A stretch of DNA of 44,688 bases from Bacteriovoracaceae bacterium (lineage in GTDB: Bacteria; Bdellovibrionota; Bacteriovoracia; Bacteriovoracales; Bacteriovoracaceae): NCBI GenBank assembly GCA_947451425.1, contig CANGAC010000002.1, forward strand, positions 1 through 44,688, written 5' to 3'. A program made the translations under genes and the position numbers. Below, piece by piece: positions 3,856 through 36,444 of this stretch. Below the pieces are notes generated by a model. It was not told where the DNA came from, searched no databases, and saw nothing but the letters and a program-made list of their open reading frames with translations. Positions within the stretch are counted from its first letter, which is position 1. Each line of letters begins with the position of its first letter.

Positions 3856-4865
3856 AATGGTTATTGCTCCTTTCACTTTTTGGCTGCGCTCAGATCACTA
3901 GCCTTAATCTTCAGAAACACCAGTTCGGCATTCTTCCTCTGCAGATTGTCTGGTTTCAGGTAGCGGGTTTAGAGGAAGAGCATCTTTCCATGCTCCGGTT
4001 CAAAGAGCCGGGGGAAGTCAGAACATCTTTTGAGGAAAACACCTGTCTCGGAAAAAGCTGGAGTTATAATCTCTATAATCTTCGCCCGAATGCACGCGCG
4101 AGTTTTCTCTCTCAGATCACCGGCAAGAAAAATATCACCGGCACATGTGATGATGCCGACCAGAAGCCAGTGTGGAGTTACCTCACTGCCAGTGGGTATC
4201 AGACAGGGATTCTTGAGATCGGTGCCAATACGGAGAGAAGCATTGTTTCTCTTACCCAGTGCGGGGAAAAAGGCTTAACTTTCCTCAGTAATATTTATCT
4301 CTGGCAAAGACAGATTGCTCCCTCCGGTGCCTCGACCTGGTCGCCTGACGATGTTCCTCTTGTTCAGAACAAAATCTTCTACGAAAAAAGCTGTGGTCAG
4401 AAAAGTTGTGGAACATCGATCACCGAGGATACGACCGCCGTCTACGAAAGACTTTCCCGTTCTTCGCGCAGGCACATGCTGATTATCCGGGACTTCAGTT
4501 ACCTTGAAGCTCTGGAAAATAAGGATTTCGTAAAGGCCCGGGAAATCCTGGGAGAACTCGAACGGTCTTATACGTATTTTTTGAAAGCGGCGAAAGATTC
4601 CAGCGAGACGCTCGTGCTCCTGACGAGTGCGGAATCCCGTTTAATCGACATGCCGGACCAGGGAAAAAACTGGTATGAGTTTGAAAAGAACGGTACGAAT
4701 CTCCAGGCGAAAAGAACGGAGCTCATGAATATGGTTCTGGCCTCTGGAGCAAGAGCGGAAAACTTCTGCGGAATTTACAGCGACGCGGATATTTTCGAGC
4801 GGATTCTCTCAGGTCCAAAACAGCAGGGACTCGAACTCAAGATCATCAATCCATTCAAGAGATAA
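3852..4865 (+). CDS. Lipoprotein with possible decayed sulfatase/phosphatase-like fold
   Basis: 337 residues. The N terminus MKWLLLLSLFGCAQ is a lipoprotein signal peptide with the lipidated Cys at residue 12. Several segments resemble landmarks of the alkaline-phosphatase/sulfatase superfamily: IVWFQVAGLEEEHL near residue 33 looks like the first beta strand with DG, GYQTGILEIGAN near 117 looks like the 'GY.T...GKWH' strand, and LVLLTSAESRL near 255 looks like the late 'TSDHG' strand. In each the metal-binding Asp/His is absent. If the resemblance is real, this is a catalytically dead relative used for binding or scaffolding. That is inference from weak similarity. The gene is coupled to the upstream membrane protein and its stop abuts the stop of the convergent hslO gene with no gap. 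Confidence 0.65.
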   Translation: MKWLLLLSLFGCAQITSLNLQKHQFGILPLQIVWFQVAGLEEEHLSMLRFKEPGEVRTSFEENTCLGKSWSYNLYNLRPNARASFLSQITGKKNITGTCDDADQKPVWSYLTASGYQTGILEIGANTERSIVSLTQCGEKGLTFLSNIYLWQRQIAPSGASTWSPDDVPLVQNKIFYEKSCGQKSCGTSITEDTTAVYERLSRSSRRHMLIIRDFSYLEALENKDFVKAREILGELERSYTYFLKAAKDSSETLVLLTSAESRLIDMPDQGKNWYEFEKNGTNLQAKRTELMNMVLASGARAENFCGIYSDADIFERILSGPKQQGLELKIINPFKR

Positions 4866-28146: not shown

Positions 28147-28174
28147 TTGAGAGAAACCTCACTTTGCCGATAAG
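28147..28174 (+). promoter_or_regulatory. Possible promoter for a leaderless 28181 transcript
   Basis: TTGAGA and GATAAG are separated by 16 bases, and the hexamer ends six bases before the ATG at 28181. The gene has no Shine-Dalgarno. The -35 matches four and the -10 matches three of six consensus bases, so the call rests mainly on spacing. Confidence 0.35.
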
Positions 28175-28180
28175 ACCGGC

Positions 28181-28603
28181 ATGAAAACTCTCATCGTTTT
28201 ATCACTCTTAATTTCCTCTTCTGTGTTTGCCGGCTGGTCGGAAAAAGCTAAGGCGCATCTTCCGAAAGATCTGCGCACACTCGAGCTGGGAAAAACCAAT
28301 CGTGATTCGGCCCGTAAGTCCCTTGGAAAGCCTGATCTCGTCAGAGGGGACAAGGAATACTGGATCCGCGATGGGTTCAAGTACGCCGTTGAGCTCACCT
28401 ACAAAGACAATAAGCTCTCAAGCCTTCATTACAATTTCACAAAGAAAGATTTTCCCCTCGAGGAACTGAAAGCTGATATCGATCCCAAGCAATTAAAATC
28501 TTCACCTACGGCACCACATACAACACTTGTGTATCAGGACAAGGAAGGAAAGCTTGAGGTCGAACTTTCAACGGGGAAAGTTGAAAGTGTGAGGTTCCAG
28601 TGA
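28181..28603 (+). CDS. Secreted BamE/SmpA-like small protein
   Basis: 140 residues with signal peptide MKTLIVLSLLISSSVFA. The segment LELGKTNRDSARKSLGKPD near residue 35, followed by EYWIRDGFKYAVEL and the strand LSSLHYNFT, has the helix-helix-strand pattern of the SmpA/OmlA (BamE-like) fold ('G-x-t ... a ... lG-x-P'). It is not lipidated (no lipobox), unlike true BamE, so it is more likely one of the many soluble periplasmic relatives than the Bam subunit. It overlaps the next secreted-protease gene by four bases (ATGA-type), suggesting a joint role. No Shine-Dalgarno is visible before its ATG. Confidence 0.6.
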   Translation: MKTLIVLSLLISSSVFAGWSEKAKAHLPKDLRTLELGKTNRDSARKSLGKPDLVRGDKEYWIRDGFKYAVELTYKDNKLSSLHYNFTKKDFPLEELKADIDPKQLKSSPTAPHTTLVYQDKEGKLEVELSTGKVESVRFQ

Positions 28604-29628
28604 AGATCATTTTTCTCTCACTCATTCTCGCGTCCTCAGCAATGGCGGAAGACTGTGCCACCTGCCATCCGGAATTTCTCCCGGATACTTCGACGTCAAA
28701 TCTGGAAGAATTTTCAAGCAGGCTGGAACACTGGAGCGCGAACAATGATCAGGTGATGAACGCTCCTTGTAAGCACAAGACGCTCGATCTCGCCCAGCTC
28801 AATCAATCTCTCGAGACTATGACGGGAAATAAGAGCAAAAAAATCCAGGGAGTGAAGTTTGATCATGAGAACCCGGAGCTTCTCCGGGTGTTTAAGAATC
28901 TCACCTCAAAAATCAGTGACTGGAAGTGGTGGGAAAAAATTGTGTATAAGCATGAAGGCGAAATTGACCTTCAGGCGAACTACCAGGTAAATCCTGAATG
29001 TAATAAGGTCCTCTGTGCCGTGGATAAAATCTGGGGCCAGTACGTGGGAAGAAAGCTTCTCTTCATGAACCTCAAGTATGGTTACAACGGTTCAGAACTC
29101 ATTCACGCTAATGCCGCAAAATACACAGATGCCGAAATGGATGACCTGCTTCTGGCGATGTCCGATCTCCCGCAAGCGATCATGCCCCTTGGGCGTAATC
29201 ACGAAATCACAAAATACGCAGCCACCGAAAGTCATCCGGATAAGGGACCGACCGTGTGGGCCGATTCTCTCGTGAGACTTTACGCTCCATGGTTCCGCGG
29301 ACCACAAGGGCTTCGTTTCCAGACTCTCATTCACGAAATTGGCCACAACATGAACTCGGCGATTGCGCCGGAAATCAACCAGCGTTGGCTCTCTATGAGT
29401 TCGTGGGTGAAAACAGGGGATAAGTGGGAATTCGATTCCGTCGGTGCCTGTATGCCTTCCCGTTACGCGATGACGAGCCCCCTGGAGGATTATGCTGAGA
29501 CTTCATCGGCCTATCGCTACAACGGACGCGCCCTCCTTGCCCAGTGCCCGGACAAATACAATTTCATGAAGGACAATGTCTTCCGCGGGGTCGAATACCG
29601 GGAAGAGTCCCAGTGTTCTGGTAAGTGA
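28600..29628 (+). CDS. Secreted zinc metalloprotease with N-terminal CxxCH
   Basis: 342 residues with signal peptide MKIIFLSLILASSAMA. The zinc site is LIHEIGHNMNS near residue 245 (HExxH). LEDYAETSSAYRY near 296 offers the downstream Glu expected of gluzincins or related clans. I cannot name the peptidase family. The mature N terminus begins EDCATCHPEF, a CxxCH sequence at residues 19-23, which is the haem-attachment motif of c-type cytochromes. Here it could be a haem site, a metal site or simply two disulfide cysteines, since the protein has about eight Cys. It is coupled by a four-base overlap to the BamE-like protein and probably acts in the periplasm or outside the cell. Confidence 0.72.
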   Translation: MKIIFLSLILASSAMAEDCATCHPEFLPDTSTSNLEEFSSRLEHWSANNDQVMNAPCKHKTLDLAQLNQSLETMTGNKSKKIQGVKFDHENPELLRVFKNLTSKISDWKWWEKIVYKHEGEIDLQANYQVNPECNKVLCAVDKIWGQYVGRKLLFMNLKYGYNGSELIHANAAKYTDAEMDDLLLAMSDLPQAIMPLGRNHEITKYAATESHPDKGPTVWADSLVRLYAPWFRGPQGLRFQTLIHEIGHNMNSAIAPEINQRWLSMSSWVKTGDKWEFDSVGACMPSRYAMTSPLEDYAETSSAYRYNGRALLAQCPDKYNFMKDNVFRGVEYREESQCSGK

Positions 29629-29657
29629 TTCAATAAATATTCTAAGCTTCCGATAGT
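29629..29657 (+). promoter_or_regulatory. Promoter-like pair positioned for a leaderless 29664 transcript
   Basis: TTCAAT and GATAGT are separated by 17 bases. GATAGT ends six bases before the ATG at 29664, so transcription would begin at or next to the start codon. There is no purine-rich SD of usual spacing; the AGGG at 29658-29661 is part of the hairpin arm. Confidence 0.42.
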
Positions 29658-29658
29658 A

Positions 29659-29689
29659 GGGTCATGAGATATCTCGTGGCCCTTTTTTT
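29659..29689 (+). terminator. Intrinsic terminator overlying the start of the 29664 gene
   Basis: GGGTCATGAG (29659-29668), loop ATAT, CTCGTGGCCC (29673-29682), then seven T (29683-29689). The stem has ten pairs, two of them G-U. The ATG of the next gene is at 29664-29666 inside the 5' arm, and the T-tract encodes hydrophobic signal-peptide residues. It is placed 30 bases after the metalloprotease stop. Confidence 0.75.
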
Positions 29690-30074
29690 GTTCGTATCCG
29701 TGAATGCCTTCGCCATGAAGTGCGATTGCGAAGTGCGCGTGTATTCTCCCACGACGGGATCGTATCAGATGGATTCCACACCACTCAAAACATATACGCT
29801 TGAAACTTACGATTCTTATCGCGTGAAAAATCAGCTTCGCTGCCGTGATCTCTGTCTCAAGACTTTTGAAGAAGATCTCCCGACAGAAAGAATGACTGCA
29901 CTCTTACTTCTTCATTCGGCACGACTCATCCGCGAGGGACTACTTGGCTATAACTGCACGGGTCTCAGCACCCTGAAATATCCCGTGCGCGTGAAGGCCA
30001 ATCTCGGAAGACTGAATCTGGGCAATGTGGCCGACCAGGTCTATGTCGTGAATCACGAAGAACAGTGTTTTTAA
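29664..30074 (+). CDS. Secreted protein, unknown function
   Basis: 136 residues. MRYLVALFLFVSVNAFA is a signal peptide, followed by MKCDCEVRVYSPTTGSYQ. The mature part has about six cysteines (KCDCEV, LRCRDLCLK, YNCTGL, EEQCF), suggesting three disulfides. I recognise no family. The first 26 bases of the coding region form the 3' part of a terminator hairpin and T-tract serving the upstream gene, so the signal peptide codons (CTT TTT TTG) double as the U-tract. The stop codon shares bases with that of the convergent rhodanese gene: TTAA at 30071-30074 is read as TAA on both strands. Confidence 0.68.
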   Translation: MRYLVALFLFVSVNAFAMKCDCEVRVYSPTTGSYQMDSTPLKTYTLETYDSYRVKNQLRCRDLCLKTFEEDLPTERMTALLLLHSARLIREGLLGYNCTGLSTLKYPVRVKANLGRLNLGNVADQVYVVNHEEQCF

Positions 30075-36384: not shown

Positions 36385-36409
36385 ACTAAATCTTCAGCAT
36401 TCCGAAAAG

Positions 36410-36444
36410 AAGGCATGGATACGACCATGCCTTTTATCTTTTTT
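36410..36444 (+). terminator. Terminator hairpin over the start of the 36415 gene
   Basis: AAGGCATGG (36410-36418), loop ATACGA, CCATGCCTT (36425-36433), then TTATCTTTTTT. It is 25 bases past the matrixin stop. Both arms contain an in-frame ATG of the next gene (36415 and 36427), and the T-rich tract encodes its residues PFIFFL. Confidence 0.75.

Follow-up and report, generated by a model that had tools for sequence, protein, structure and literature searches.

Genes and features of the locus

The window, a stretch of 44,688 nucleotides from a Bacteriovoracaceae bacterium, contains a gene for a secreted 136-amino-acid protein that lies on the same strand as a protease-like gene ending 35 nt before its start codon (Table 1). 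No start codon other than ATG 29664 occurs in frame after the stop codon TAA at 29643, the product begins with a clear signal peptide, and the orthologues start at the same position. The protein contains conserved cysteines; neither it nor the product of the protease-like gene matched any Pfam or NCBIfam family. The gene adjoins polA in most of the 26 genus genomes, with polA ending just upstream of the orthologue in most relatives. Extra coding sequence between polA and the 29664 gene was found in the window genome and in its nearest relative, G018. Two genes (28181 and 28600) intervene in the window genome, and the same protease-like gene lies directly upstream of the orthologue in G018.

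Table 1. Coordinates of the features discussed (window positions unless a locus is named).
Feature	Position	Strand	Remarks	Basis
Second leaderless FliA-type promoter (predicted)	28167..28183	+	CCGATAAGACCGGCATG; CCGATA-8-ATG; heads unit 28181-29628	
Upstream protease-like gene	28600..29628	+	Signal peptide, HEIGH zinc-protease-like motif; its RNA is the candidate for termination	
TTCAA, likely weak -35 element	29629..29633	+	16 nt before CCGATA; consensus TTAAG	
CCGATA, sigma28/FliA-type -10 element	29650..29655	+	8 nt before start codon	
Hairpin 5' arm	29658..29668	+	Terminator-like; start codon inside	Folding
Start codon ATG	29664..29666	+	Within 5' arm; predicted leaderless RNA 5' end	
Secreted Cys-containing protein, 136 aa	29664..30074	+	Orthologue in all 26 same-genus genomes	
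Hairpin 3' arm	29673..29683	+	In signal-peptide codons 4-7	Folding
T7 tract	29683..29689	+	Codes for signal-peptide Leu/Phe	Sequence
Second window start-codon hairpin	36402..36442	+	CCGAAA, ATG 36415, 11-pair stem 36408-36435, T-rich tail	
Chaperone/usher cluster	L205:4398-8953	-	Two small secreted subunit-like genes, 76-aa gene with start-codon hairpin, PapD-type chaperone, usher	

Promoter of the 29664 gene

The stretch 29629-29700 opens with TTCAAT (29629-29634), followed after 17 nt by GATAGT (29652-29657), AGGGTC, and ATG 29664. A sequence-only reading of this DNA had taken TTCAAT-17-GATAGT, a sigma70-type arrangement, as the promoter; its letters are correct, but the conserved -10 element is CCGATA, and a generic sigma70 promoter scan gave no match at 29664. 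In a start-codon alignment, 25 of the 26 same-genus orthologues have CGAT(A/G) 7-8 nt ahead of the ATG, mostly as CCGATAAG, and the published consensus of attack-phase, FliA-dependent promoters in Bdellovibrio is TTAAG-N16-CCGATA (PMC3627812). The 25 orthologues together with the Bdellovibrio CCGATA consensus led us to reject the sigma70 assignment, and the promoter, judged by motif and conservation, is of the sigma28/FliA type. In most relatives, the last codons and stop codon of polA (CTTAAG-TAA/TAG) supply a TTAAG about 15 nt before CCGATA. A TTAAG-like -35 element is clear in many relatives, whereas the window genome and G018 have only TTCAA; the N16 spacing after TTCAA is preserved in G018 and agrees with the published consensus. 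That the -10 element keeps a fixed distance from the ATG even in diverged species speaks for a leaderless start, and the spacing GATAGT-6-ATG falls in a genome-wide peak of -10 hexamers 6 nt before start codons (see below).

At L004, L005, and L007, immediately ahead of the orthologue start, and also at L015, the FliA -10 element forms the centre of inverted repeats (CCGATAAGATCGG, CCTCCGATAGGAGG). In G010 and G009 (L009/L010), which have another upstream gene, a very stable G+C-rich hairpin with no T tail (CCGGGGCGTGGCC...GGCCACGCCCCGG) adjoins the -10 element on its upstream side, some 15-45 nt ahead of the orthologue start.

A hairpin across the start codon

The hairpin that encloses ATG 29664 consists of an 11-pair stem (29658-29668/29673-29683) and a 4-nt loop, ATAT, with a folding energy of about -17.5 kcal/mol. 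Two of the pairs are G-U, and the outermost pair, A29658-T29683, extends the 29659-29668/29673-29682 stem of the sequence-only reading, which was otherwise accurate as to the hairpin, the seven T residues, and the translation of the T tract from ATG 29664 as signal-peptide Leu/Phe codons. At -19.2 kcal/mol (z = -3.4), the minimum free energy of the 29629-29700 stretch was equalled by none of 200 shuffles. As in intrinsic terminators, the stem is stable and G+C rich (about 5-12 pairs with a small loop being usual) and is adjoined by a U tract (T7), and a terminator scan identified this hairpin as the sole terminator-like site of such quality within 27.5-31 kb. A search of the locus against Rfam returned no match.

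The predicted fold depends strongly on where the RNA begins: an RNA starting at A29664 reaches -3.4 kcal/mol, compared with -10.1 kcal/mol from position -3 and -17.6 kcal/mol from position -6. The claim that RNA from the ATG cannot form the terminator is borne out by these energies, and the escape of the downstream RNA holds if that RNA starts at ATG 29664 or no more than 2 bases away.

The hairpin was seen in the window genome alone and was absent from all 25 other same-genus orthologues. It was absent even from the closest relative, G018, in which the same protease-like neighbour lies 36 nt upstream. When the 29664 gene was recoded synonymously, a T-tailed hairpin persisted in 23% of trials. 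The hairpin ranks among the strongest of the class of start-codon hairpins described below. The second start-codon hairpin of the window, at ATG 36415, was not found in any relative; its promoter is conserved.

Leaderless-type genes in the genus

TATAAT-like hexamers stand 6 nt before the start codons of 77 genes in 1.18 Mb of the window genome (G000), compared with about 21 at other spacings. The spacing-6 peak repeats in a further 0.54 Mb of G000 (36 versus about 9) and in sampled stretches of G025 (36 versus about 16 elsewhere), gene starts for these and the other genome-wide counts having been taken from a simple purpose-made caller. A peak at exactly 6 nt before start codons is the mark of leaderless genes, indicating, on the evidence of spacing, that about 5% of the genes in this Bdellovibrio-like lineage are leaderless genes of the sigma70 type. 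A Shine-Dalgarno motif was found for 4/84 leaderless-type genes, versus 413/1108 genes overall. CCGATA peaks at 8 nt before start codons, and the pattern CCGATARN{5,8}ATG has 52 matches in G000 compared with 13 for the control, with an excess over control genus-wide as well. Leaderless FliA-type promoters, in which CCGATA lies 7-8 nt before ATG, thereby appear as a widespread class. At position 3866 on the plus strand of L142 (G025), a perfect 12-bp inverted repeat (GATAAAATAAGG...CCTTATTTTATC) surrounds a leaderless-type start and includes the -10 element.

Excess of T-tailed hairpins at leaderless-type starts

The sequence-only reading had suggested a genome-wide scan for hairpins over start codons, and the excess that it anticipated is present. 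The scan covered 1.72 Mb, or about 52%, of the window genome, and the leaderless class, defined by its -10 element, comprised 156 genes. Hairpins were counted when the stem started no more than 9 nt upstream, enclosed the start codon, had a dG of -7 or better, and was followed by at least 6 T in the next 8 positions. Such T-tailed start hairpins occurred in 8/156 leaderless-class genes and 2/1453 other genes (Fisher, 2.5e-7), the two latter matches (L089 and L173) having doubtful start codons. Permuting the upstream 9 nt among the leaderless genes gave a mean of 0.83, and 0/20,000 permutations reached the observed 8; with the two window genes excluded, 6 were observed compared with 0.38 permuted (0/20,000 reached 6). 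Synonymous recoding yielded a mean of 2.05 T-tailed hairpins and a maximum of 4 in 60 simulations, so that the amino acid sequence accounts for part but not all of the excess. This agrees with the earlier suggestion that U-rich signal-peptide codons contribute, recoding alone still yielding roughly 2 of the 8. A tail of 6 or more T in 8 positions followed 8/14 start hairpins, compared with 8.8% at matched positions (P = 7e-6); the start hairpins at L121 and L078 have no T tail. All 8 T-tailed cases lie 19-76 nt behind a co-directional gene (8/8 versus 76/143, P = 0.008), and the cases inspected had no other terminator in the 150 nt upstream. The first sample contained 86 strong terminator-like structures, of which 7 extend across a start codon and a single one is located entirely within coding sequence.

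The class definitions were widened after a first look at the data. Under the strict promoter definition, the first sample contained 5 cases in 84 genes, compared with 0.48 expected, and the second G000 sample contained none in 39, its two cases (L205 and L168) counting only under the wider, post hoc definitions. No excess was found in 0.8 Mb of G025, where 0/55 leaderless genes had a T-tailed start hairpin. As an independent set, seven other genomes supplied 99 matches to CCGATAR-N5-9-ATG with T4 after it. The set contained 6 hairpins of -8 or better, compared with 1.04 when permuted over all rows (0/5,000) and 1.62 when permuted within genomes (P = 0.003), which replicates the hairpin part of the excess.

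Among individual members, L092 and L120 are strong cases whose candidate orthologues are too divergent or multicopy to judge, and the G018 orthologue of the L095 gene is of the leaderless type and has no hairpin. A covariance model for RNA of this class was abandoned, the loops being too variable to be aligned usefully.

A conserved case in a chaperone/usher cluster

One of the 8 cases lies at the start of the 76-amino-acid signal-peptide gene of the chaperone/usher cluster (Table 1). The same arrangement and register were found in the orthologues of G001, G002, G008, G025, and G009, making six genomes with G000, and bases -11 to -1 pair with +11 to +21. In the six-sequence alignment, 97% of the cells are paired and 6 of the 11 pairs are compensatory, with both sides changed. 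The covariation score is 0.56, compared with 0.19 in shuffles (0/500 as high) and with 0.06-0.15 in slid registers. U-G pairs, which are expected for RNA, occur in the stem, and in G001 the stem is followed by a poor U tract. The stem is gone from a seventh genome, G018, where the upstream neighbour is 192 nt away instead of 39-46 nt. An alignment that includes G018 and omits G009, whose orthologue was identified by coinciding coordinates of the sequence and the profile-search match, gave a covariation score of 0.44 versus 0.27.

Proposed mechanism and alternative explanations

The favoured reading, with a probability of roughly 0.6, is that the window hairpin is a terminator placed over a leaderless start, belongs to a class that recurs in the genus, and ends read-through RNA. 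The hairpin at 29658-29683 and its T tract would act as the intrinsic terminator of unit 28181-29628, which is predicted to be FliA driven and to end in the protease-like gene, and would overlie the leaderless, FliA-type start of the 29664 gene. A polymerase arriving from upstream would make the whole stem and the U tract and be released, whereas a polymerase starting at A29664 would lack the 5' half of the outer stem, form no terminator, and produce a leaderless mRNA for the secreted protein. Because upstream polymerase would be released and polymerase starting at the ATG would not, adjacent genes could be separated without extra intergenic DNA. That the RNA starts at the ATG, that termination takes place, and that insulation is the purpose are inferences. 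The earlier claim gave one short sequence three tasks, ending the upstream RNA, starting the downstream RNA, and encoding an export signal. Its general idea is supported by the genome-wide excess, the hairpin excess in seven other genomes, and the six-genome covariation at one other locus; conservation at 29664 did not bear it out, and use of the hairpin as a terminator is presumed.

It is doubtful, though conceivable, that the 29664 hairpin arose by chance where a G-rich discriminator meets pyrimidine- and T-rich signal-peptide codons and that it has no selected role. Its absence from all 25 orthologues and the survival of a T-tailed hairpin in nearly a quarter of synonymous recodings are what such an origin would predict; the class, however, exceeds both the permutation and the recoding expectations, every member follows a close co-directional gene, and the 29664 hairpin is among the strongest. 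The 29664 and 36415 hairpins could have joined the class recently or could be fortunate by-products. In strength, T tails, and neighbours they match the class, but any function there is putative. Comparative support for the reading is good at other loci of the genus. Translational insulation, with the hairpin serving chiefly to conceal the start codon of read-through RNA, the leaderless transcript as the sole source of the secreted protein, and the T tail as secondary, is unlikely. It would account for the enclosure of the AUG by the stem, for the start hairpins without T tails at L121 and L078, and for the conserved G001 stem with its poor U tract, but not for the strong enrichment of T tails after start hairpins, and internal starts would be little used anyway because leaderless genes lack Shine-Dalgarno motifs (just 4/84 have one).

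In pap-type operons, stem-loops separate the expression levels of genes for small subunits and for the chaperone and usher. The genes upstream of the conserved case likewise encode small subunit-like proteins ahead of chaperone/usher genes, a setting that suits a hairpin stabilizing or processing the 3' end of the upstream mRNA. This, or a regulator-bound DNA palindrome, is nevertheless very improbable: T tails fit termination, the U-G wobble in the covariation and the two such pairs in the window stem fit RNA rather than DNA symmetry, and the stem sequences differ between loci, which argues against a common operator. For the terminator reading, the pattern across loci suggests a class that recurs in the genus, usually at signal-peptide genes, and that would arise and vanish quickly at most loci and be kept at some, such as the chaperone/usher cluster. 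There is a somewhat better than even chance that terminators over leaderless starts constitute a selected class of insulators in the Bacteriovoracaceae, arising repeatedly through pairing of signal-peptide codons with the 6-10 nt that lead from the -10 element to the ATG and separating close co-directional units with almost no intergenic DNA.

Were the terminator reading true, the start codon and export signal of one gene would also serve to stop the gene before it, and the downstream gene would get past this signal solely by initiating its RNA within the hairpin. A single 30-nt stretch would then couple promoter position, codon choice, and termination. Such coupling would offer a reason, open to testing, why compact genomes use leaderless transcripts, and it would mislead annotation as well as those terminator-finding programs that exclude coding sequence. 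FliA-type promoters would also be used leaderlessly in a Bdellovibrio-like lineage, a relative of predatory bacteria.

Comparison with known systems

The promoter resembles the FliA attack-phase promoters of Bdellovibrio in its CCGATA -10 element and in a TTAAG-like -35 element about 15-16 nt upstream (PMC3627812), but it differs in lying 7-8 nt before the ATG, as expected of a leaderless gene, and in being overlapped by the putative terminator. No description of leaderless use of FliA-type promoters was found in the literature searched. Leaderless genes of mycobacteria, corynebacteria, and Zymomonas (PMC4633059, PMC3890552, and PMC7566282) similarly have a -10 element 6 nt before the start and no Shine-Dalgarno motif; the terminator-over-start arrangement was not found in these three papers. 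Nor was a terminator over the (leaderless) start of the next gene described in the open literature searched, most subscription papers lying outside the search.

The closest parallels are overlaps of terminator and promoter. In Escherichia coli frd-ampC, the ampC attenuator is the frd terminator, according to the account of Grundstrom and Jaurin (1982) given in PMC6045580, and nlpD1-penA of Burkholderia pseudomallei has a comparable overlap (PMC6045580). As proposed for the window locus, one hairpin ends the upstream unit in the promoter region of the next gene, so that neighbours share sequence. The frd-ampC terminator sits in the downstream leader and attenuates ampC, the RNA of which contains the hairpin, whereas the downstream RNA of the window locus is predicted to begin inside the 5' arm; if it starts at A29664 it cannot form the stem, unlike the RNA of a classical attenuator of the ampC/frd type. 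The window hairpin also holds the start codon and signal-peptide codons.
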